DNA of 49,614 nucleotides from a virus: positions 1 through 49,614 of IMG/VR virus record IMGVR_UViG_3300023180_000092, one strand, 5' to 3'. The notes under the pieces were generated by a model that did not search any database, was not told the DNA's origin, and worked only from the letters and a program-made list of their open reading frames with translations. The stretch's first letter is position 1. Each line of letters opens with the position of its first letter. A program made the translations under genes and the position numbers. Shown here piece by piece: positions 28,813 to 40,340 of the stretch.

Positions 28813-29286
28813 ATGTCTAAGAAACTTTGGAAAAAGGTAAAGAAAATGGATTTAGGTAATCCCATAATTACAGCTCTTGTAGGACTAGTTATATTCTATA
28901 TTGGGCTGAAGACGTTCTCTGGTGGTATGAAGTCAATGGGGAATATAGAACATCTCTCATGGTTCACAGGTAATGTGATCTATATGTTTATTGGTGGTAT
29001 TGTCATGACCCTCTTATGGCAATCAAGTTCATTATCAACTACAGCAATTATAGCTTTAGTAGCTTCAGGAGCAGTTCCACTACCAGCAGCAATAGCAGCA
29101 GTACTTGGAGCTAATATAGGAACAACCGGCACCATATGGTTAGCCGGTCTTTTAGTATCTGATGGTATACCAAAAGGGGATACATTACGAATAGCTATGG
29201 CACATACCGGTATGAACCTTATGATGGCCATAATGTTATTACCATGGGTTCACCATATTGCGAAATATCTTAGTAGATTTGGATAA
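28813..29286 (+). CDS. half-size Na/Pi cotransporter (NptA/PNaS family)
   Basis: 157 residues, with hydrophobic segments at about 18-35, 55-70, 76-112 and 128-150. QSSS (70-73), followed by TTAIIALVASGAVP and LGANIGTTGT (98-107), is the repeat signature of SLC34/NptA transporters, which import phosphate with sodium. Full transporters have two such inverted repeats; only one is encoded here, so a homodimer or a partner of the host protein is implied. Would raise phosphate supply for DNA synthesis. The preceding palindrome may regulate it. Confidence 0.8.
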   Translation: MSKKLWKKVKKMDLGNPIITALVGLVIFYIGLKTFSGGMKSMGNIEHLSWFTGNVIYMFIGGIVMTLLWQSSSLSTTAIIALVASGAVPLPAAIAAVLGANIGTTGTIWLAGLLVSDGIPKGDTLRIAMAHTGMNLMMAIMLLPWVHHIAKYLSRFG

Positions 29287-29864: not shown

Positions 29865-30881
29865 ATGTTAAAATTTAGACAGTATCTTATGGAGAAAGGT
29901 ATGCTATTCAAAGTTAAACTGACCGCTGGTGAACTTTTAAAACCAGGTCGAGAGGGTCGGGGAGACACTTTAATAGCAAAGCTAAAAGATAATGATCCTT
30001 TCATTCTTTCTAACGGTCAACAAGTTACCATACGTTCGAACGACGAACAAATCAAAGCAATAAGACAACATTTAGATAATGGAGATCGCAAAAGCCTAAA
30101 TGACCTTAGGTTTGCTGGTACAGACGGTGGCAATTATAAATTATCTGACCTTGCTAAGACTGCAGAATTCGGTGGTAAACCATCCGGATACTCAGTAAGA
30201 GGTGAGGACGAAGCACTAACTGCTTTCAGAAAAGAATTACAGAAAGCTTTTGATGAAGATACCGTACCTTACATCTTTATTCAAATTGGTAGAAAAACCG
30301 AAAAGGTTGCTAACATCGAATCAACCCCAGGCACTCCTAAATCAGATTTCCATATGGAAGACGAAAATGGTAATGAGGTCTTTTGGCTTTCGCATAAAGT
30401 TGGGAGAAGAGCAAACGACTTCCAGCAGTATGGAGGTATGCCAGAGCTTAAAGGTGAGAATTCTAAAGATATGGAAAGCTTTGTTGATGCAGTTAAGGAA
30501 GAACTAAAAACGCTTGGCGCAACCCGATTCCCCATGAAAACAGCCTTTGCGAGAAAAGTTAAAGATCAAAATATTAAATTGAAAACTTTATTTGGTAAAG
30601 AATACAAAGCGGGGGCAGGAGGAGCATCCCGCCAAAATATTGATGTACTTTATCAGGGCCCTATGAAATTAAAGAAATTAAGATATAAGGGTAAAATACC
30701 CGTTTATACTATTACGTCAAATCATACTATTTTACATGGCAAAGTAGGTACGGGAGATTACGAGCCTTACTACTATGTAAGACCAGAACAGGCAAAAAAT
30801 CAGTTCGGCATTGGTGGCGCAAGATTTTTCATTGTAGCAAAGGCTACAGCTCTTAAAAATAGAAACACAAAGGAGATATAG
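29865..30881 (+). CDS. capsid-targeted protein of unknown function
   Basis: 338 residues. The N-terminus MLKFRQYLME has the T4 internal-protein capsid-targeting pattern (M-x-x-F/Y-x-x-F/Y-I/L-x-E) with a gp21-type cleavage point after E10. The body contains TPKSDFHMEDENGNEVFWLS and HKVGRRANDFQQYGG, which I remember as a pattern of phage proteins but cannot assign. D...(S)HK could be a degenerate PD-(D/E)XK nuclease core, but the acidic residue before x-K is missing. Late promoter directly upstream. Probably packaged in the head. Confidence 0.6.
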   Translation: MLKFRQYLMEKGMLFKVKLTAGELLKPGREGRGDTLIAKLKDNDPFILSNGQQVTIRSNDEQIKAIRQHLDNGDRKSLNDLRFAGTDGGNYKLSDLAKTAEFGGKPSGYSVRGEDEALTAFRKELQKAFDEDTVPYIFIQIGRKTEKVANIESTPGTPKSDFHMEDENGNEVFWLSHKVGRRANDFQQYGGMPELKGENSKDMESFVDAVKEELKTLGATRFPMKTAFARKVKDQNIKLKTLFGKEYKAGAGGASRQNIDVLYQGPMKLKKLRYKGKIPVYTITSNHTILHGKVGTGDYEPYYYVRPEQAKNQFGIGGARFFIVAKATALKNRNTKEI

Positions 30882-31631
30882 ATGATCGGTGGCCTTTATA
30901 ACAGATCTTTACTTTTTGCTAAACTAGCAGCTATAGCATACCAAGACGAAATTAGTTCGGAAGAATTAAAAGAATTAGGATTTACAGATAAAGAATTTTA
31001 TAATAGAGACGGTGCGCAAGCCTGGCGCTTTGAGAATGATACAGATATTGTTATTGCATGTCGTGGTACACAACCAAATCAATGGAATGATTTAAAAGCA
31101 GATCTTAGGGCTACACCAGTTAGAGCAGAAACAATTAGTAGAGTTCATAAGGGCTTTAAAACAGAGGTAGATGATCTCTGGCCAATGGTACTAGAAGATC
31201 TAAAAGAAACCAAAAAGACTCTTTGGTTCTGTGGTCATTCACTTGGTGCAGCAATGGCTACAATCATGGCAGGACGTTGTTACTATGATGATAGGTTACC
31301 AGATCCTGAACAACTTTATACGTTTGGATCACCTCGTGTTGGTTGGGGTAGATATGTAAGAGAATTTAAAACAAAACATATTCGCTGGGTAAACAATAAC
31401 GATATTGTTACACGTGTCCCATTTGCTATTATGGGTTACAGACATGATGGTGAAGAACATTATATGAATGCCTACGGAAAAGTACGTCCATTGACTGGAT
31501 GGCAAAGAGTAAAAGATAGATTCCGTGGTATGTGGATGGGTATTAAAAAAGGTAAGATTGATAACTTTAGTGATCATAGTATGAGTGAATATATTAAAAA
31601 TTTAGAGAATCATATTAAGGAAAACGGTTAA
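30882..31631 (+). CDS. class 3 lipase (alpha/beta hydrolase)
   Basis: 249 residues. GHSLGAA (118-124) is the nucleophile elbow with S120; D174 (NNNDIVTRVP) and H232 (DHSMSEYI) complete the triad in the correct order. FGSPRVGW is a lipase-3 hallmark. It has no signal peptide. Late position suggests use in lysis (membrane lipids) or incorporation in the virion. Found in several marine T4-like phages. Confidence 0.85.
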   Translation: MIGGLYNRSLLFAKLAAIAYQDEISSEELKELGFTDKEFYNRDGAQAWRFENDTDIVIACRGTQPNQWNDLKADLRATPVRAETISRVHKGFKTEVDDLWPMVLEDLKETKKTLWFCGHSLGAAMATIMAGRCYYDDRLPDPEQLYTFGSPRVGWGRYVREFKTKHIRWVNNNDIVTRVPFAIMGYRHDGEEHYMNAYGKVRPLTGWQRVKDRFRGMWMGIKKGKIDNFSDHSMSEYIKNLENHIKENG

Positions 31632-32365
31632 TGCCTCGATTGGCTCCATCACAATATCTTGAACACCAGGGAATACAAATTGCAGCTGGTAATGTGCTTC
31701 ATACAACGTCAGTGCATAAATTCGGTGCTGTACCTTCTATGAGTATTAATAATACTGGTACAATCTGGGACGTGAATGACACACTTTATCCTTGGTCAAC
31801 TTTCTCTTCTGCAGCAGTTGTTAATGTTGAAAGAAACAATGTCGCTGATGAAGGTAAACAAATTACCATACAAGGTCTAGATGCAAATTATAATTTAGTT
31901 GAAGATACTGTTACTATTGCTGGAGCTGATACCCTATCTACACAAACTTTTATTAGAGTATTCCGTGCTTTTAAAAGCGCTGGAGCAATAAATGTTGGAG
32001 ATATTGATCTTGAATATGGTGCCGCTGGCGGAACAACTGTAGCAAGAATTAATGCCGGTAAAGGTCAGACACTTATGGCGATTTATACAGTTCCAGCTGG
32101 ATATACAGCATTTCTCCTACAAGGAACAGCGACTTGTCAATCTGGTGCAGATGCAACTGGTGATATGTTTGTAAGATATTTTGGCCAAGACGCATTCAGG
32201 ACAGGTCATAGTTTTGAGGTCTCTGGCGCAGGCGGTCAATATTTTTATCCTTTTGCAGTACCAATTAGAATTCCAGCAAAAAGTGATATTGATGTTCGAG
32301 CATCAGTAAGATCAAACAATGCTAGACTAACAGCTGCCTTTGATATAATATTAGTAAAAGATTAA
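31631..32365 (+). CDS. virion structural protein, beta-sandwich
   Basis: 244 residues, beta-strand and Gly/Ala/Thr rich (SMSINNTGTIWDVNDTLYPW, AGKGQTLMAIYTVPAGYTAF), few charged residues, no Cys in the core except one. Resembles decoration or fibre-type structural proteins of T4-like marine phages. Starts in the lipase stop. Role in head, neck or fibre is not determined. Confidence 0.6.
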   Translation: MPRLAPSQYLEHQGIQIAAGNVLHTTSVHKFGAVPSMSINNTGTIWDVNDTLYPWSTFSSAAVVNVERNNVADEGKQITIQGLDANYNLVEDTVTIAGADTLSTQTFIRVFRAFKSAGAINVGDIDLEYGAAGGTTVARINAGKGQTLMAIYTVPAGYTAFLLQGTATCQSGADATGDMFVRYFGQDAFRTGHSFEVSGAGGQYFYPFAVPIRIPAKSDIDVRASVRSNNARLTAAFDIILVKD

Positions 32366-32369
32366 TGGG

Positions 32370-32398
32370 TTTACTTTTAATTCGAAAGACGGTATAAT
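32370..32398 (+). promoter_or_regulatory. promoter giving a leaderless message (ligase-like gene)
   Basis: TTTACT (32370-32375), 17-nt spacer, TATAAT (32393-32398), 6 nt to ATG 32405. An early-type promoter in the late region. Confidence 0.7.
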
Positions 32399-32404
32399 AC
32401 AACT

Positions 32405-33634
32405 ATGGAAAACTTCAAGAACTATATTACTGAACAAAAGAATACCCATATGACCCACATTGAAGATAAGGTCATATATGGTGGAGTGAATGGTACACGT
32501 CAGGCTATCAACGCACTACGTGAATTAAGAGATATGTTAGGAGGCAAACATGCAGGTTCTGTTTCTGTTAAGTGGGATGGTGCACCTGCTATCTTCGCTG
32601 GTACTGATCCTCGTGATGGTAAATTTTTCGTTGCAAAGAAAGGTATTTTTAACAAATCTCCCAAGGTCTACAAGACACCAGCAGATGTTGATGCTGATAC
32701 TTCTGGGGATTTGGCTGATAAGCTTAAGCTCGCACTTAAGCACTTACCCGAACTTGGTATAAAGGGAGTAATACAGGGTGACTTCTTGTACGGTCCAGGA
32801 GACGTTAAAACATCTAAAATCGGCGGTGAATCATATATTACATTCCACCCCAATACAATTGTATACGCAGTTCCATCAGGAAGTCCAGCAGCGAAAGAAA
32901 TTAAATCGGCGAAATTGGGGATTGTGTGGCACACGACATACAAAGGACGAACATTCGAAACAATGAGAGCGTCGTACGGTGTAGATGTTGCCAAGATGCG
33001 TAAGTCTAGAAACGTTTGGTCACAAGATGCTATGTTACGTGACATGACAAGCTACACTATGTCAAAACAAGAGACGGACGAAGTGAATACATACTTGAGT
33101 GAAGCTGGAAAGATATTCAATAAGATTTCTAGTTCTACACTCAAGCAACTAGAATCGAATCCAATGTTAGCACAACATGTAGAGCAACATTCAAATAGTT
33201 ATGTACGTGCTGGTGCGCTTCCACCAGATCCATCGAAAAGAGTAGAAGCACTTATTAAGTTCATTAAAGACAAGTATCAAAAAGAGATTGATAAAAGGAA
33301 ATCTGAAGCAGGTAAAGGTGCACAACAGAAAAAACTAGATGCTATCCTTGAATTCTTTTCAGAAGATAATAAAAATAATTTGAAATTAATGTTCGAACTA
33401 CAAAAAAACATTGTATTAGCAAAGTTAAAACTTATAAATACATTAAATAAACTATCTAATGTGAAGACCTTTGTTAAAACGAAAACAGGTTACAGGAGTA
33501 CAGGCCCTGAAGGTTATGTAGCAATTGATAAGCTTGGTGGTGATGCGGTAAAGATTGTTGACAGAATGGAATTCTCGTACAACAACTTTTCGCCTGATAT
33601 TTTAAAGGGATGGGATAAACCGGGAAGAAACTAA
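32405..33634 (+). CDS. ligase/nucleotidyltransferase-like protein (DUF6267-like) with capsid-targeting N-terminus
   Basis: 409 residues. N-terminus MENFKNYITE matches the capsid-targeting consensus with cleavage after E10. SVKWDGAPAIF (54-64) resembles ligase motif I K-x-D-G with K56; GVIQGDFLYG (121-130) could be motif III, and EGYVAIDKLGGDAVKIVD near 370-387 motifs IV-V. So it may be an ATP-grasping ligase or capping-type enzyme carried in the head. Motif spacing is unusual and no OB domain is visible, so activity is uncertain. An early-type promoter precedes it. Confidence 0.6.
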   Translation: MENFKNYITEQKNTHMTHIEDKVIYGGVNGTRQAINALRELRDMLGGKHAGSVSVKWDGAPAIFAGTDPRDGKFFVAKKGIFNKSPKVYKTPADVDADTSGDLADKLKLALKHLPELGIKGVIQGDFLYGPGDVKTSKIGGESYITFHPNTIVYAVPSGSPAAKEIKSAKLGIVWHTTYKGRTFETMRASYGVDVAKMRKSRNVWSQDAMLRDMTSYTMSKQETDEVNTYLSEAGKIFNKISSSTLKQLESNPMLAQHVEQHSNSYVRAGALPPDPSKRVEALIKFIKDKYQKEIDKRKSEAGKGAQQKKLDAILEFFSEDNKNNLKLMFELQKNIVLAKLKLINTLNKLSNVKTFVKTKTGYRSTGPEGYVAIDKLGGDAVKIVDRMEFSYNNFSPDILKGWDKPGRN

Positions 33635-34110
33635 TGGCAGAGAAATTAGGATTCAAGCATTTTATGACAGTCAACTATCGCCCAGGCGAAGATGACTTAA
33701 CTAACTATAGAGCACACAAAAGACGTCGTGGCCAAGGCGCCGGAAGTGATGCTGAATATTCTTCAACAAATCCCCCAGAAGAAACCGACGAGGCTCTAAC
33801 CCCTTCGCAGAGGCTTGCACGTGGTAGACAAGCACGTAAGAACAAGTCTAAGCTAAAAATGGGAAGAGCAAGAGCAGCTCGTAGAATTGCATCTATGCAG
33901 GTTCTAAAAAAACGTGCACGTAAATCTGCACGTAAGGCACTCTATAAGAAACTCGTTAAAGGTATCCCAAAAACAGAACTATCACCAGCACGCAAACAAG
34001 AGATTGAAAAGCGTCTTGAGAAACCAGCTTTCCAGGCTAGAATTTCTAGAATGGCTAAGAAGACACTCAAAGACGTACGTAAAAAAGAATTAGCAAGAAA
34101 GCGTAAGTGA
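33634..34110 (+). CDS. very basic virion/DNA-binding protein
   Basis: 158 residues, with an Arg/Lys-rich helical body (RARAARRIASMQVLKKRARK, ARKALYKKLVKGIPK) and a disordered N-terminal region (ENPP-type linker SDAEYSSTNPPEETDEA). Common in marine T4-like phages next to capsid-cargo genes. Charge suggests contact with packaged DNA. No catalytic motif. Its stop overlaps the next start (TGATG). Confidence 0.6.
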   Translation: MAEKLGFKHFMTVNYRPGEDDLTNYRAHKRRRGQGAGSDAEYSSTNPPEETDEALTPSQRLARGRQARKNKSKLKMGRARAARRIASMQVLKKRARKSARKALYKKLVKGIPKTELSPARKQEIEKRLEKPAFQARISRMAKKTLKDVRKKELARKRK

Positions 34111-35576
34111 TGATCGGTTCATTCCGCCAGTATCTGGTCGAAGAAGAAAAGGTCGTTTATTTTTCCTTTGGAAGAATGAACCCACCTACTATTGGCCACG
34201 GTAAATTATTAGATAAGTTAGCAGCATCTGCAGGACGTAATCCATATCGAATGTACGTATCACAATCTGTTGACCCTAAAAAGAATCCACTAGAATATAG
34301 ATCCAAAGTTAAATTTATTCGTAAGATGTTTCCGAAACATGCACGGAACGTTCTCCTGAATAATAAAGTAAAGAATGCAATGGAAGTTGCATCAGCACTA
34401 TATGATGAAGGTTACCGTAAGATCGTAATGGTTGTTGGTAGCGATCGTATGAGAGAATTTGATGTTCTTCTCAATAAGTATAACGGTCAAAAGGGTAGGC
34501 ATGGTTTCTACAACTTTATGGATATTAAAGTTATTTCTGCTGGTGATCGTGATCCAGATGCAGAAGGTGCTACAGGTATGTCTGCATCTAAAATGCGTAC
34601 AGCAGCATCTGATAATGACTTTACAGCATTCTCACAAGGTCTACCCAAAAACTTCTCTAACGCAGATTCAAAAGCACTCTTCAATGCAGTACGCAAAGGT
34701 ATGGGTCTAAAGGAACAGACTGAATTTAAGAAACATGTACAACTTGAACCAGTATCAGAGATAAGAGAAAACTACATCGATGGTAAACTATATGAAGAAG
34801 GTGATCAGGTAGTTATTCTAGAAACAGGTCAAGTTGGTAAAATCAAACGACTTGGTGCAAACTATGTTATTATTGAAGCTGAAGAGAATGTGTATCGTAA
34901 GTGGCTAGACGATGTAGAAAAAGTTGATGGACATAAGATTGAATACGATACTGCGGAATTCAGTATGCCAAAGCCACTACAAGAAGAATCACAACATCCA
35001 AATATTTGGGATAACATCCGTAAGCGTAGAGCAAAAGGTCTTCCACCACGTAAGCCTGGCGAAAAAGGTTATCCAAAGACTCTTGATCTACCTGAAGATG
35101 GTCCGTGCTGGCCCGGATACAAACAGGTTGGTACCAAGATGAAGAACGGTAAAGAAGTTCCTAACTGTGTACCAGAATCAACTGTAAACGAAAAGATTGA
35201 CGTCAGGCAAGATCCAGATATCGATGAGCTTCCAGGTTCACAACCAGCTACATTTCAAAAAGGTATTAAATCAAAATCTACAAAGGCAGCACGTCATCGT
35301 CATTTCCAGAGAATGACAAAGAGACGTGATGATGATCCAAGTGCTTATAAAGATGCACCAGGTGATAAGAAAGCTCGTGCAAAAGGTACTAAGCCTTCAC
35401 AGTACACAAAGAAGTTTAAACAGATGTACGGTGAGCAGATGGATCCGGTGGATGTAGCCAAACAAAGAATCGATAGAGAAAAAGCAGCTGATGCAAGTCG
35501 TCACGATAGTATGCTAGACCGTGCACGTACAAAAGCAACAAAAATGAAAAATAGAGATACGAAGCCAAATGTATAA
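34110..35576 (+). CDS. nucleotidyltransferase with capsid-targeting N-terminus and long tail
   Basis: 488 residues from ATG 34110. MIGSFRQYLVE is the targeting peptide. VVYFSFGRMNPPTIGHGKLL (15-34) is a nucleotidyltransferase core where the second His of H-x-G-H is kept (T-I-G-H); GMSASKMR is the distal motif. After about 200 residues comes a basic, probably disordered region with MKNGKEVPNCVPE and RHRHFQRMTKRRDDDP stretches. A packaged enzyme that could modify a nucleotide or cofactor on entry is conceivable; the first motif His is replaced, so it may be inactive. Confidence 0.65.
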   Translation: MIGSFRQYLVEEEKVVYFSFGRMNPPTIGHGKLLDKLAASAGRNPYRMYVSQSVDPKKNPLEYRSKVKFIRKMFPKHARNVLLNNKVKNAMEVASALYDEGYRKIVMVVGSDRMREFDVLLNKYNGQKGRHGFYNFMDIKVISAGDRDPDAEGATGMSASKMRTAASDNDFTAFSQGLPKNFSNADSKALFNAVRKGMGLKEQTEFKKHVQLEPVSEIRENYIDGKLYEEGDQVVILETGQVGKIKRLGANYVIIEAEENVYRKWLDDVEKVDGHKIEYDTAEFSMPKPLQEESQHPNIWDNIRKRRAKGLPPRKPGEKGYPKTLDLPEDGPCWPGYKQVGTKMKNGKEVPNCVPESTVNEKIDVRQDPDIDELPGSQPATFQKGIKSKSTKAARHRHFQRMTKRRDDDPSAYKDAPGDKKARAKGTKPSQYTKKFKQMYGEQMDPVDVAKQRIDREKAADASRHDSMLDRARTKATKMKNRDTKPNV

Positions 35577-35829
35577 TTTTAAGACATATCTCAAAGAGAA
35601 CGCTGAAGCAGCTCTTAAAACAAAAGCTGATAAAAGTGGTTTCTCTTTAAGTATTCTTCGTAAGGTTTATAAAAGAGGTGTAGCAGCTTGGAAGGTTGGT
35701 CATAAACCAGGAACTACACCACAACAATGGGGTATGGCACGAGTGAACAGTTTCATTACTGGTGGTCGTACAAGAGTCAAAGGTGACCCTGATTTATGGG
35801 CGCAGCAAAAGGGGAAAATCAGGAAATGA
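35569..35829 (+). CDS. DUF5824-like capsid-targeted protein
   Basis: 86 residues. MYNFKTYLKE is the targeting consensus. LRKVYKRGVAAWKVGHKPGT and TPQQWGMARVNSFITGG match DUF5824, a domain frequent in T4-like cyanophages and relatives with unknown function. Overlaps the preceding gene by 8 nt. Confidence 0.75.
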   Translation: MYNFKTYLKENAEAALKTKADKSGFSLSILRKVYKRGVAAWKVGHKPGTTPQQWGMARVNSFITGGRTRVKGDPDLWAQQKGKIRK

Positions 35830-36872
35830 TAAAGCTGAAAGATATTCGGAAAAAGAAAAAAGACGATAAGGCCACAATGAACGCCAAGATTGATCCTAAA
35901 GAAAAGGATCAAGAGGTATCTTCTGACGTAGAAGAATCTGTGAATGAAGCAGAAATGACTGCAGCCCAGAAAAAGAAACGTGAAGAAATTGTCCTGAAGA
36001 TGAAGGATAAAGAAGATGAGTTCAAAAAGAACTACGGTGATCGCTGGAAAGAAGTTATGTACGCCACTGCTACAAAGATGGCAATGAAAGAAGAAGTTGA
36101 ACTTGATGAGGATTTAGCTGCTGATATTAGACGTGAAAAAGAAAAGCAAGCTAGAAATAAAGCACGTACTGCTACTGCAAACACAGAAATTGATAGAAAT
36201 AAAGCAACTGATAAACTTCATAAAATGGGTCTGAATCGTAGTATGGATAGAGCTAAACACTATGACGCTCGTATGAAATTATCTGGTCTTAGAAAAGAAG
36301 CTGCACCTAAAATTGATGACAAGAAATATTCTGAATATATGGCTTCACGTCAAAAACCAGTGAGACAATCTTCAACTAAAAAATCGTTAGCTGATATTCG
36401 CAAAAAAGCAGAAATATACAAAAAGGAAGAAATTAATTTGTCTAAAAAAGAAGAAATCTTCGAGGCGAATGAACAAACATTAAATACACTCATTGAAAAA
36501 ATACACAATCATGTCCTCAATGGAGAAGATTATAAAACAGTTATTAATGAAATCACAACAATTGGAAATTTTGGTTGGTCTTCTAGAGAATTAACAGAAT
36601 TATATATTGAAAAATATGTTGATATAAACGAAGAAATTAATTCTTCATTAGCGGCACTTTATGAAAAGCATGTTAATGAAGGTGAATTAACAGATATTGC
36701 GAAAGAGCGTATTGCTCGAGAAAAGCAAAGAGATAAAATTAAACATCTACAAATGATTGCACGAGCAAAGGTTAAAGATTTAAAAAAAGAAGATACACCA
36801 TCTGACAGAGAATGGGGTACTGATAGTCTTACTGCAAAATACAAAAAAGACACCCCAGGACAAAATGATTAA
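35826..36872 (+). CDS. charged, helical virion-associated protein
   Basis: 348 residues from ATG 35826 (overlaps the previous stop; an upstream ATG at 35796 is less likely). Contains EIVLKMKDKEDEFKKNYGDR followed by WKEVMYATATKMAMKE, a segment I know from T4-like marine-phage structural proteins, then Lys/Glu-rich helices. VNEAEM and ELDEDL-type L/V-x-E points could be prohead-protease sites. Likely a prohead core or internal head protein. No enzyme motif. Confidence 0.6.
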   Translation: MIKLKDIRKKKKDDKATMNAKIDPKEKDQEVSSDVEESVNEAEMTAAQKKKREEIVLKMKDKEDEFKKNYGDRWKEVMYATATKMAMKEEVELDEDLAADIRREKEKQARNKARTATANTEIDRNKATDKLHKMGLNRSMDRAKHYDARMKLSGLRKEAAPKIDDKKYSEYMASRQKPVRQSSTKKSLADIRKKAEIYKKEEINLSKKEEIFEANEQTLNTLIEKIHNHVLNGEDYKTVINEITTIGNFGWSSRELTELYIEKYVDINEEINSSLAALYEKHVNEGELTDIAKERIAREKQRDKIKHLQMIARAKVKDLKKEDTPSDREWGTDSLTAKYKKDTPGQND

Positions 36873-37158
36873 TTTTAAGACATATATATCTGAAGGTATA
36901 AAACTTAAACTTATCCGTGGCAAAACACAAGATGTTCTTAAGATGTGGGAAAAAGGTGATAAGACTTGGGTTGAACTTAGAGGTAAGCCTGGATTTGAAA
37001 ATAAATACGATCCTAGAGACCCGCTACACAAGGCAATTACAGCGTTAGGTAAGTCAGCAAATATATCCGATTTTGTAAACGGTGAAGAAGTTAGTATAAA
37101 TCCAAAACATCCGGATGGCAAAAAAGCTTTAGATACAATAAAAAAGTTAATGAAATGA
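36865..37158 (+). CDS. small capsid-targeted protein
   Basis: 97 residues. MINFKTYISE, then a basic body (GIKLKLIRGKTQDVLKMWEK). Cleavage after E10 would leave an 87-residue, Lys-rich internal protein. Function unknown; as for T4 internal proteins it may enter the host with the DNA. Confidence 0.6.
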   Translation: MINFKTYISEGIKLKLIRGKTQDVLKMWEKGDKTWVELRGKPGFENKYDPRDPLHKAITALGKSANISDFVNGEEVSINPKHPDGKKALDTIKKLMK

Positions 37159-37349
37159 AATCGTTTAAACAGCATATAAATGAATCAATTCCCCCAGAGG
37201 TGGCGATGGCAGCTGTAGCGGCTCCTGTCGCTATCCCTGCGGTGAAAGCTGTTGCTAAAGGAACGTATAAAACTGTAAAAGGTATTTTTAAAGCAAAAAA
37301 AGCAGCGACTAAAGTAGGACAGAAAGTAGCAAATAGGTTAGTAAAATGA
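37155..37349 (+). CDS. capsid-targeted Ala/Val/Lys-rich peptide
   Basis: 64 residues. MKSFKQHINE, then EVAMAAVAAPVAIPAVKAVA, a hydrophobic run, then a cationic tail (KAKKAATKVGQKVANRLVK). The mature part resembles an amphipathic or membrane-active peptide. If delivered with DNA it could act on the inner membrane; this is inference. Coupled on both sides by 4-nt overlaps. Confidence 0.6.
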   Translation: MKSFKQHINESIPPEVAMAAVAAPVAIPAVKAVAKGTYKTVKGIFKAKKAATKVGQKVANRLVK

Positions 37350-37585
37350 AAAACTTTAAAGATTTTGTTGTTAAAGAAAATTTAATATCAGAAGAATTTG
37401 ATTACGTTGTTAGGGTAGAAGACTTGCCTGATATGTATATGAAAGCAAAAACACCTTCTGAAATTAAAAGAAATCTTAGAAAAATTTTAAGAGATCCTAA
37501 TACTTTAATATCAGTTGAGCGTATACTTGCAACTGATTTGAAAAAAATATTTAGAGCTAAAGCCACAGGACAAGAAGAAGAATAA
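37346..37585 (+). CDS. capsid-targeted small protein
   Basis: 79 residues. MKNFKDFVVKENLISE has the same beginning but the L/I-x-E site falls at LISE (13-16), or after VVKE. Body helical with basic RNLRKILRD. Starts in the previous stop. Confidence 0.55.
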   Translation: MKNFKDFVVKENLISEEFDYVVRVEDLPDMYMKAKTPSEIKRNLRKILRDPNTLISVERILATDLKKIFRAKATGQEEE

Positions 37586-37809
37586 TGAAAAGGTTTAGGC
37601 AATTTATTGAAGGTTCAGAAACTTGGGAAGCAGGCTATAAACGTCGAGTTGTAAAAACAACTAAACCTGAACATAAAGAAAAAGGCCATAATTGGAGAAT
37701 TAAAGGTAAAGATAGACCTGAGATTTCAATTAAACTATATAAAGAAAAACCATCTTACAAAGAATTTACAAAGCAAATGAAACGTGTTGCAGGTCATGAG
37801 TTTGGTTAG
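37585..37809 (+). CDS. capsid-targeted-like small basic protein
   Basis: 74 residues. MKRFRQFIEG keeps the aromatic pattern, but the site reads FIEG, so cleavage by the L/I-x-E rule would be off by one residue (F-I-E). Body strongly basic (KTTKPEHKEKGHNWRIKGKD). Function unknown. Confidence 0.5.
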   Translation: MKRFRQFIEGSETWEAGYKRRVVKTTKPEHKEKGHNWRIKGKDRPEISIKLYKEKPSYKEFTKQMKRVAGHEFG

Positions 37810-37820
37810 GAGAAACACAA

Positions 37821-38180
37821 ATGACAGACTATAAACAATTAGTAGAAGAATCTATCTTGGTTTACCTATCAGAAAATGATGATCATACAGTATTAGTAAA
37901 AGAGCCGCCAAATCCTTTTAGTCCAGACGCAAAGAGAATGCATACACTTCGTCATTCTAGTCGAGGAACAATGACTAAGCTTAAAAAAGGTATGTCCGAT
38001 CATGAAAAGAAACATATGTCAGGCGCATATATGGACGACACAGCTATTGTACATAGAAAAACCGGTAAAACTATGGCACATGTGATGCGCTTTAATGGTA
38101 AAGACACAAAACCTAAAACTTTTGGCGAAGTTCGTAAAGAGATTCAGGCACACATTTCAAAGCACCACCCAGAGAAGTAA
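37821..38180 (+). CDS. possible capsid-targeted protein
   Basis: 119 residues. MTDYKQLVEE is a variant of the targeting peptide, with LVE and YLSE as possible cleavage points. The body has HTLRHSSRGTMTKLKKGMSD and several His (HISKHHPEK). Family not recognised. Ribosome site GGAGAAAC. Confidence 0.5.
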   Translation: MTDYKQLVEESILVYLSENDDHTVLVKEPPNPFSPDAKRMHTLRHSSRGTMTKLKKGMSDHEKKHMSGAYMDDTAIVHRKTGKTMAHVMRFNGKDTKPKTFGEVRKEIQAHISKHHPEK

Positions 38181-38181
38181 A

Positions 38182-38538
38182 ATGGATAAATTTAGTAAAT
38201 ATACAGAAGAACGAATTGACGCGATTTGTGAAGAGTGTAATCTATATGAAGATTTGGAAATCACCGAAGCAGAGTATCAAGGTAAAAAAGTTAAACTAAA
38301 CGATCCTATTCGTACTTCAGAAAATCCAAACAAAAAATTTAAAGTTTATACTAAAGGGGAAAACGGCGGCATTGTAGTAGTTCGTTTTGGTGATCCACAT
38401 ATGGAAATTAAAAGAGATGATCCTGCAAGACGTAAAAACTTTAGAGCAAGACATAACTGTGATAATCCTGGACCTAAGTGGAAAGCACGCTATTGGTCAT
38501 GTTATCAATGGCGGGCAGGTGCAAATGTAGATAATTGA
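38182..38538 (+). CDS. conserved T4-like virion protein
   Basis: 118 residues from ATG 38182. VVVRFGDPHMEIKRDDPARR and RARHNCDNPGPKWKARYWSC belong to a block I recall in many marine T4-like phages. Two Cys (NCDN, YWSC) may bind metal. The N-terminus MDKFSKYTEE is a weak variant of the targeting motif. Probably an internal head or structural protein. Confidence 0.65.
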   Translation: MDKFSKYTEERIDAICEECNLYEDLEITEAEYQGKKVKLNDPIRTSENPNKKFKVYTKGENGGIVVVRFGDPHMEIKRDDPARRKNFRARHNCDNPGPKWKARYWSCYQWRAGANVDN

Positions 38539-38622: not shown

Positions 38623-38901
38623 ATGGCACTTTGGGCAAAAACAGACGCAACAGCTTCAAGACCAAAATGGTTAGAAACAAATGCAAATAATACAAATAAA
38701 TCTAATGATGAAGATCTTGCGGTTTTTATTGATACTGCAGAGGCAGGAGTAGCAGCCAACCGTTCAAAAGGTTTAAAAACACCAGGTTGGAATTTGTATT
38801 GGACAACACACAGCGGTACTCGCCATCGTGTTGAGCCATTAGTTGTAATGAAAGTTTCTTCTGGCGATGCAGGAGATAACGACTCGTTCCCTAATTCCTA
38901 A
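38623..38901 (+). CDS. virion structural protein (conserved small)
   Basis: 92 residues. MALWAKTDATASRPKWLE, EAGVAANRSKGLKTPGWNLY and TRHRVEPLVVMK match a small structural protein in most marine T4-like phages. Role likely at the head surface or tail. Strong AAGGAG ribosome site. Confidence 0.7.
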   Translation: MALWAKTDATASRPKWLETNANNTNKSNDEDLAVFIDTAEAGVAANRSKGLKTPGWNLYWTTHSGTRHRVEPLVVMKVSSGDAGDNDSFPNS

Positions 38902-39293: not shown

Positions 39294-40340
39294 GTGGTTG
39301 TAGATCTATTTTTAGTATATCAATTTATAAGAAGACTAGCTACGCCTTTTGAAAAATGGCCTGCGTATGAGGCTGGTGTAATAGACGGCGATGGTAATAT
39401 TCTTATAAAGAAAAAAGATCGTCTTTTGGTATCTCAAAGGAAATCTTTTGGTATCTTTGATCTAATGATATTAAAACTAAAAAAACTACTAGGTAAAGTT
39501 CCCGGTGGTAAAACTAGACTTGCATCTTATGCTGCAGCTATATGGCTTATTAAAGAGTGGAAACATTTTTCTGAAGACAGTTTGCTTAATGAATCTGTTA
39601 CTGAAAAACAAATTGATGAATCATTAGAATTGTTTTTGATTCGATATAATCATTATAACACACTTGTAGAAAATGTCAATGGAAATTTAATAGAAAAATT
39701 AAAAGCAACCGATGATATGGGTAAATGGATTGATGATTTTCAGAAATCAGATGCACCACAATTCAAAGGCAAGTCAAAAGAAAAACGTCGCCAAATGGCA
39801 ATTGCTGCTAAGTACGGCGCAGAGCGTGACGTAGGCCTTAGAGAATGGGTATGCGGTCAATGTAACTGTGAACCGTGTATTTGTGAAAATGATGGATTGG
39901 ATGAACTGTCATTATCAGTAAAAGATCTTGAAAGACTTAAAAAAGGCTTGAAAAAAGAGAACCTTGAAGAAGTAGCCGCAATAGCACGTTGGAAAAAAGC
40001 TGGACCAAATGGTGAAATACAAGCTACTATTGGTGGAAAGAAATATCAAATAGAAAAATCATTAGATCATAATGAACGCCATAAAGGTGAATGGAAAGTT
40101 ATGGTTTGGGATAAACGTAAGAATAGCTGGGAATGGGAAACTACTGAATATGGTAAAGCCAATGCTAAAGCATGGATTGTGGACCGCATGAATGAAGAAC
40201 CAACAAATACTGTAGGCGGCGGAGCTATTGCAGGTATGGATGCAGGCCATATGTCAAAAGCCGCGCAAAAGAAATGGGTACAATCAAATAAAAGAAAAAG
40301 AAAAACTATTAGAGATGTTATGAAAGGCGGATTAGTATAA
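39294..40340 (+). CDS. conserved late protein with Cys cluster
   Basis: 348 residues from GTG 39294. DLFLVYQFIRRLATPFEKWP and PGGKTRLASYAAAIWLIKEW are conserved in marine T4-likes. The middle has SDAPQFKGKSKEKRRQMAIA and a CGQCNCEPCIC cluster that may bind zinc. The C-terminal IARWKKAGPNGEIQATIGG part could be a separate beta domain. LLNE and LVE could be protease sites. Likely virion. Confidence 0.65.
   Translation: MVVDLFLVYQFIRRLATPFEKWPAYEAGVIDGDGNILIKKKDRLLVSQRKSFGIFDLMILKLKKLLGKVPGGKTRLASYAAAIWLIKEWKHFSEDSLLNESVTEKQIDESLELFLIRYNHYNTLVENVNGNLIEKLKATDDMGKWIDDFQKSDAPQFKGKSKEKRRQMAIAAKYGAERDVGLREWVCGQCNCEPCICENDGLDELSLSVKDLERLKKGLKKENLEEVAAIARWKKAGPNGEIQATIGGKKYQIEKSLDHNERHKGEWKVMVWDKRKNSWEWETTEYGKANAKAWIVDRMNEEPTNTVGGGAIAGMDAGHMSKAAQKKWVQSNKRKRKTIRDVMKGGLV

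Follow-up and report, generated by a model that had tools for sequence, protein, structure and literature searches.

The DNA analysed here (hereafter the window) is the IMG/VR virus record IMGVR_UViG_3300023180_000092, of 49,614 bases. It is a genome fragment from a T4-like phage of marine type, and genes for a clamp loader, DNA polymerase, UvsX, a helicase, thymidylate synthase and ribonucleotide reductase were recognised in it from their translations. Between positions 29865 and 38538 lies a group of genes whose products begin with a peptide of about ten residues that resembles the leader of the T4 internal proteins (MKTYQEFIAE). An initial annotation, made from the letters of the window, had claimed that seven to ten proteins share this leader, and had taken it for a capsid-targeting signal that is cut by the prohead protease gp21. 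All ten N-termini that it named were found in the window, on the following open reading frames (ORFs; designated below by their first position):

29865-30881, plus strand: 338-residue cargo candidate (phrog_13937, E=7e-52), leader MLKFRQYLME
32405-33634, plus strand: DUF6267 protein (PF19782, E=1e-106), leader MENFKNYITE
34110-35576, plus strand: NMNAT/cytidylyltransferase-like protein (phrog_3041/395, E=1e-73/2e-70), leader MIGSFRQYLVE
35569-35829, plus strand: DUF5824 protein (PF19141, E=5e-16), leader MYNFKTYLKE
36865-37158, plus strand: 97-residue orphan cargo candidate, leader MINFKTYISE
37155-37349, plus strand: 64-residue basic protein, leader MKSFKQHINE, from an inferred start
37346-37585, plus strand: 79-residue protein (weak phrog_696 match), leader MKNFKDFVVKE
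37585-37809, plus strand: 74-residue basic protein, variant leader MKRFRQFIEG
37821-38180, plus strand: 119-residue protein, leader MTDYKQLVEE
38182-38538, plus strand: 118-residue protein (DUF5754-like, phrog_7595), variant leader MDKFSKYTEE

Leaders were counted with the motif ^M.{1,4}[FY]..[hydrophobic or His][hydrophobic, Thr or Ala].E, modelled on the T4 sequence, which replaced an earlier and looser motif that gave 8-15 matches per genome, many of them spurious. Matches head 7 of the 14 called genes in 29865-38538 and none of the 65 called elsewhere in the window (Fisher 1.2e-6); shuffling of the first 25 residues gave a mean of 0.10 matches and a maximum of 3 in 20,000 trials, and none of the 338 internal Met positions in the window fits the motif. 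Three more genes carry the leader in a variant form or from an alternative start, which brings the tagged neighbours to about eight to ten; some genes of the locus (30882, coding for a lipase, 31631, 33634 and 35796) are untagged. An eighth leader of good form, MKSFKQHINE, begins at 37155 and escaped the count, since the gene caller picked a later ATG at 37206; the start at 37155 is favoured by its 4-nt overlap (ATGA) with the upstream stop. ORF 34110 was listed from an upstream GTG (34107), with the leader beginning at ATG 34110, and the start at 38182 lies within a longer listed ORF (38095). The leaders of 37346 and 37585 are off register, with Glu at residue 11 and residue 9, respectively, so that cleavage is doubtful in both. 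As the motif was composed after the window had been seen, independent loci provide the stronger test.

A search with DUF6267 matched at least 600 IMG/VR stretches, and 80 loci were kept; the six peptides used in the search included the leader itself (MENFKNYI), which is a mild bias for DUF6267 and none for its neighbours. Across the 80 loci, the motif occurs at 224 of 1172 starts versus 8 of 5716 internal Met residues; leaders are thus enriched at true starts in the relatives as in the window. The carriers include 68 of 79 DUF6267, 67 of 83 NMNAT-like and 40 of 52 DUF5824 homologs, 8 of the 14 homologs of ORF 29865, the single ortholog of ORF 36865 (in locus L114) and the homologs of ORF 37346, with leader-like N-termini. 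The tagged proteins cluster into 18 groups, the largest of which is joined through fusion proteins, while some of the singletons are probably due to chance.

Mutagenesis of T4 IPIII has assigned targeting mainly to residues 4 and 7 of the leader and processing to residues 8 and 10, and an Asp at residue 10 blocks processing but leaves targeting intact (PMC9026906). In our comparison residue 4 is Phe or Tyr by construction, being the anchor column. Among the distinct DUF6267 leaders, residue 7 is Phe, Tyr or His in 41 of 43 and residue 8 is hydrophobic in all 43; the NMNAT and DUF5824 leaders follow the same pattern. Glu occupies residue 10 in 41/43 distinct DUF6267 leaders and in 32/39 and 32/39 of those of the other two main families, with residues 5 and 6 free to vary. 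The conserved columns coincide with the functional residues 4, 7, 8 and 10 of IPIII. Residue 10 is mostly Gly in the 37585 family, and in the 38182 family 6 of 14 homolog leaders have Asp there; since Asp10 in T4 permits targeting and not cutting, members of these two families, the product of ORF 37585 among them, may be packaged uncut.

In the alignment of DUF6267 proteins, tagged members read ITE/QKNTHMTHIED (a slash marks the predicted cut here and below), whereas cyanophage members begin MSKNTHLEHLED or MAKNTHLEHLED; the leader directly precedes the KNTHxxHxED segment, at which the leaderless cyanophage proteins start. Because the leader stands exactly ahead of the start of the leaderless proteins, the alignment indicates that it is a module added at a natural protein start. 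In the NMNAT of cyanophage S-SCSM1, the leader lies about 100 residues ahead of the enzyme domain.

The initial annotation had named gp21 as the protease responsible for cleavage. Neither a match to the gp21 family (PF03420) nor a gp20-gp23 block was recognised in the window, and gp21 is missing from it because the window is a 49.6-kb fragment. The family was found in 8 of 8 complete or near-complete relatives (C48C1, DLP6, Melnitz, HTVC008M, P-HM2 and the three longest IMG/VR relatives, G001-G003), as well as in T4, which served as control. The gp23 cut positions of the relatives, placed by alignment to T4 FLTE/AEIGG and therefore predicted, read FLTE/TGPTNS (C48C1), FLAE/TPTMNT (G001), FLTE/AAPAGA (G002), FLSE/AAPTNS (Melnitz) and LLGE/AAPTNQ (DLP6), and FLGE/ also occurs among them. 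An L-x-E consensus is present in C48C1, G001, G002, Melnitz, HTVC008M and DLP6 and is weaker in G003.

Virion proteomics of related cyanophages has been published. In agreement with the packaging that had been proposed, leader-bearing orthologs are detected in the particles. Virions of S-CREM2 contain the cytidylyltransferase gp154, the S-adenosylmethionine (SAM) hydrolase gp6, the APH/ChoK-like kinase gp14, gp12 and gp13 (PMC10665884, Table 3). Their N-termini are MKNFSSFLTE/A (gp154), MKDFDSFLEE (gp6), MKRFDAFLTE (gp14) and MKDLHSFLTE (gp13), and gp6 and gp14 are encoded far from the cargo locus. A tight form of the leader motif is found in 3 of 52 detected versus 0 of 147 undetected called proteins of this phage (P=0.02). 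S-SCSM1 virions contain the NMNAT ORF91 (PMC9602691), with the leader MKSFLQFLKE/A, and much of the helicase-primase block is labelled virion protein in the GenBank record of this phage. Virions of S-SZBM1 contain the NMNAT 140, with MRFRQFIIE/A, and its neighbour 139 (PMC9146016). The identity of ORF 34110 of the window to the NMNATs found in virions is 43% for that of S-SCSM1 and 36% for that of S-CREM2. The cargo locus of S-CRM01 encodes a kinase with the leader MISFDQFLSE; kinases, which may include this one, were identified in S-CRM01 virions according to PMC10665884. The accessible parts of these reports make no mention of a targeting leader. As a side observation, the virion protein S-CREM2 gp12, named as a Cas9, has a leader-like RFASFMAE at about residues 17-25, and gp12-gp15 (OR473000 7704-13331, minus strand; L170) are possibly a second cargo locus.

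We consider it very probable that the region serves a marine T4-superfamily phage as a head-cargo locus, whose products are targeted by the leader, cut by gp21, retained with the DNA and ejected at infection. The T4-type capsid targeting of a larger and more enzymatic cargo put forward in the initial annotation is thus supported by the leaders, by gp21 in the relatives and by tagged orthologs in virions; targeting and cleavage in the window phage itself, injection and the enzyme functions are what we infer. Under this model, the prohead core would recognise the leader through the aromatic residues 4 and 7, and the tagged proteins would be built into the scaffold core. During head maturation gp21 would cut at [ILV]8-x-E10 and free the cargo, which would stay with the DNA and then be ejected into the host. 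Most of the cargo would be enzymes or basic proteins, namely the ligase-like DUF6267 and NMNAT-like nucleotidyltransferases, DUF5824, a variable protein of nuclease-like type and small basic proteins.

Several observations weigh against this interpretation. Over all S-CREM2 proteins, the association between leader and virion detection is modest (4/52 versus 2/147, P=0.04), and the authors of that study say that the enzymes might be co-purified contaminants (PMC10665884). Several virion-detected S-SCSM1 proteins of the same locus are leaderless, so that a second route into the virion exists. The leaderless DUF6267 of S-SZBM1 (protein 141) is not among the virion proteins listed for that phage (PMC9146016), so that for DUF6267 the leader is the sole argument for packaging. 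The cleavage sites of 37346, 37585 and 38182 are imperfect. Finally, our searches turned up neither virion proteomics for the window phage or others of its close clade nor an N-terminus mapped to a predicted cut.

These points leave room for two other explanations. The leader could be an uncut docking peptide on the prohead or the assembly machinery, borne by proteins that act in the producing cell only or as scaffold. The frequent lack of Glu10 in the 37585 and 38182 families would fit such a role, as would the behaviour of the T4 Asp10 leader and the influence of T4 IPIII on head assembly (PMC9026906); however, Glu10 is needless for docking and is retained in the great majority of leaders of the three main families, and the orthologs are present in purified virions, which makes this explanation improbable. 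More improbable still is mere co-purification of the enzymes, as late proteins made in abundance, with the virions, their common N-terminus deriving from recombination or gene duplication in the locus and not from targeting. The S-CREM2 authors raised co-purification as a possibility, and the few peptides (2-3) behind the NMNAT detections might allow it; although the leaders of 35569 and 36865 have a stretch of DNA in common, the leader DNA otherwise differs from gene to gene, the constraint falls on the functional columns, the leader heads unrelated families, and S-CREM2 gp6 and gp14, far from the locus, are tagged too, with gp12 having its RFASFMAE.

With regard to the cargo, the enzyme-like character proposed initially holds for the DUF6267 and NMNAT-like families, which carry the leader, and does not extend to the lipase of ORF 30882, which lacks it. 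ORF 34110 contains FGRMNPPTIGH (TIGH) and MSASKMR, motifs of the NMNAT/cytidylyltransferase type, matches PF01467 only below the cut-off, and is predicted to be an NMNAT-like nucleotidyltransferase. DUF6267 has the motifs KWDG(AP), QGD, EGYV and VK in the order seen in covalent nucleotidyltransferases of the ligase superfamily, and K-x-D-G-A-P, QGD, EG and K are invariant in 27 sequences; by these motifs it is a putative ligase-like nucleotidyltransferase. Families of PHROG in which DUF6267 is fused to NMNAT (phrog_455) and NMNAT to DUF5824 (phrog_3041) suggest that the three are functionally linked. The slot just upstream of DUF6267 (L049-L128; 29865-30881 in the window) is hypervariable and holds many unrelated proteins of about 250-460 residues. 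In ORF 29865 a conserved block, SDF-x(10)-FWLSHK-x(8)-QQYGG, resembles a PD-(D/E)XK core in alignments, and several unrelated slot fillers, some with a leader, have the D...(E/S)xK blocks typical of PD-(D/E)XK nucleases; we take a nuclease-like nature of the slot fillers as a lead only. A crude PD-(D/E)XK regular expression matched 27 of 88 proteins near the slot and 46 of 411 locus proteins overall, a post hoc comparison of overlapping sets that is not relied on here. Pfam gave no family for ten proteins, most of them from near the slot, and sequence searches of the PDB with two alignments (A1, of DUF6267, and A2) and the NMNAT domain gave no useful match. Structure models were obtained for DUF6267 (predicted local distance difference test, pLDDT, 64) and ORF 29865 (pLDDT 75), and Foldseek found nothing significant in the PDB for either, YaeQ and DrdV appearing for ORF 29865 at E of about 0.6-0.7. 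Because the models are of low or moderate confidence and the structural searches were without significant match, the ligase and nuclease assignments stay at the level of motifs.

A varied cargo behind one leader has already been described in T-even phages (PMC9026906, PMC3012670). The window proteins resemble T4 IPI, IPII and IPIII in that several unrelated proteins begin with a ten-residue leader (aromatic at 4 and 7, hydrophobic at 8, Glu at 10), and in the presence of gp21 in the genome group of the window phage. They differ in that the cargo is often enzyme-like and reaches 340-490 residues, whereas that of T4 is only small and basic, in that their locus lies between gp41 and gp61, and in that the tags vary from gene to gene. 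A phmmer comparison of the locus proteins with every protein called in T4 found nothing significant, and hence no sign of homology to IPI, IPII or IPIII. T4 Alt, an ADP-ribosyltransferase, goes into the prohead core as cargo, undergoes processing by gp21 and is injected (PMC9026906); it shares with the window the use of an enzyme as cargo, but the window cargo matches no called T4 protein. Close parallels are in S-CREM2, S-SCSM1 and S-SZBM1, which have NMNAT orthologs at the corresponding locus, with the same leader and in virions; the cyanophage DUF6267 proteins in our alignment lack the leader. The Dar proteins of P1 and the ejection proteins of SPN3US are named as functional analogues only: both are proteins of the head that travel in the particle and reach the host, those of SPN3US being processed by a prohead protease.

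A further T4 counterpart is gp61.1 (NC_000866 18966-19130; L168), a protein of 54 residues that adjoins gene 61 on the gp41 side and thus shares with the marine cargo locus the leader and the position in the gp61-gp41 interval. It consists of MKTFKEFIKE, then DMVAGDSGGNPENISIGTTSGAVVNKGP and a basic tail. Besides its small size, it is set apart from the window cargo by a mature part that is a copy of the gp23 arm; an ungapped alignment of 32 residues (z=10.8) pairs the protein with FLTEAEIGGDHGYNATNIAAGQTSGAVTQIGP, the cleavage junction and arm of gp23. Copies of the gp23 arm are also found near gp61 in S-CREM2 gp160 (z=15.7) and S-SCSM1 ORF97 (z=14.4), both detected in virions, and weaker ones in Melnitz, in S-SZBM1_134 and at the C-terminus of a window gene just beyond the tagged group:

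39294-40340, plus strand: phrog_18642 protein, C-terminus EEPTNTVGGGAIAGMD like the gp23 post-cleavage arm, then a basic tail

This C-terminus scores z=6.7 against the C48C1 gp23 arm, and ORF 39294 is a possible counterpart of gp61.1. Matches to gp61.1 in tblastn searches number 1386 phage records, some annotated as major capsid protein, an upper figure because gp23 itself may be among them. Literature searches, in sources without most subscription journals, found no study of gp61.1 function, no papers on the roles of DUF6267 and DUF5824, and nothing relevant on capsid targeting in cyanophages. As separate observations, small genes that follow phrog_18642 homologs (in L092, L127 and others) have C-termini of the type LLKRFRKYIEDNG, resembling the leader motif; residues ~330-365 of ORF 34110 (34110-35576) form a segment, GPCWPGYKQVGTKMKNGKEVPNCVPE, where PHROG families 28131, 9737, 4359 and 27523 match; and S-CREM2 gp160 has a similar CWPGYEKKGTKKMFGKEYNNC, possibly a small shared domain.

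In most of the phages compared, the cargo locus lies between gp41 and gp61/nrdA. In the window, three untagged genes within or directly beyond the tagged group deserve mention:

31631-32365, plus strand: phrog_8198 protein, without leader, sharing 37% identity with S-CREM2 gp176, which is detected in virions
33634-34110, plus strand: 158-residue, very basic protein, without a cleavable leader (LGFKHFM)
38623-38901, plus strand: phrog_613 'head protein', without leader, resembling the virion-detected S-SZBM1_136

Because the untagged 31631 and 38623 also have virion-detected relatives, the locus is a virion-protein locus in which tagged cargo and untagged particle proteins are mixed. Counterparts of the 33634 protein in C48C1 and G003 do have a leader (MLSFKQFVSE and MVLRFKDFIKE, respectively). 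Directly before the cargo locus, the window encodes a short Na/Pi-cotransporter-like protein (28813-29286; PF02690), and similar short proteins lie ahead of the locus in several relatives (L057, L080, L081, L100 and L106).

While the mechanism is known from T4, its scale, cargo and marine distribution appear to be undescribed in the searchable literature. A broader reading, which we offer tentatively and with our doubts somewhat outweighing our belief, is that the T4 leader serves marine T4-like phages as a general tag by which a modular enzyme kit is loaded and injected (ligase-like DUF6267, NMNAT-like proteins, kinases, SAM hydrolases and, directed against the defences of hosts or rivals, a hypervariable protein of nuclease-like type), and that a pan-T4 mimic of the gp23 arm, of the gp61.1 type, belongs to the same system. 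On that reading the slot before DUF6267 would turn over because its protein attacks or blocks such defences, and the recurrence of metabolic enzymes in cyanophage virion proteomes would be explained. A head-cargo locus of the kind described here offers an answer to the doubt, left by proteomics, over the NMNAT, kinase and SAM hydrolase associated with virions, which could be either cargo or contaminants. With DUF6267 spread over 456 phage records and no fewer than 600 stretches in IMG/VR, the ten-residue motif may serve as a predictor of virion-carried proteins of unknown function in an abundant group of ocean viruses, and DUF6267 and DUF5824 would gain a specific place in infection, as proteins delivered with the DNA, before phage gene expression.

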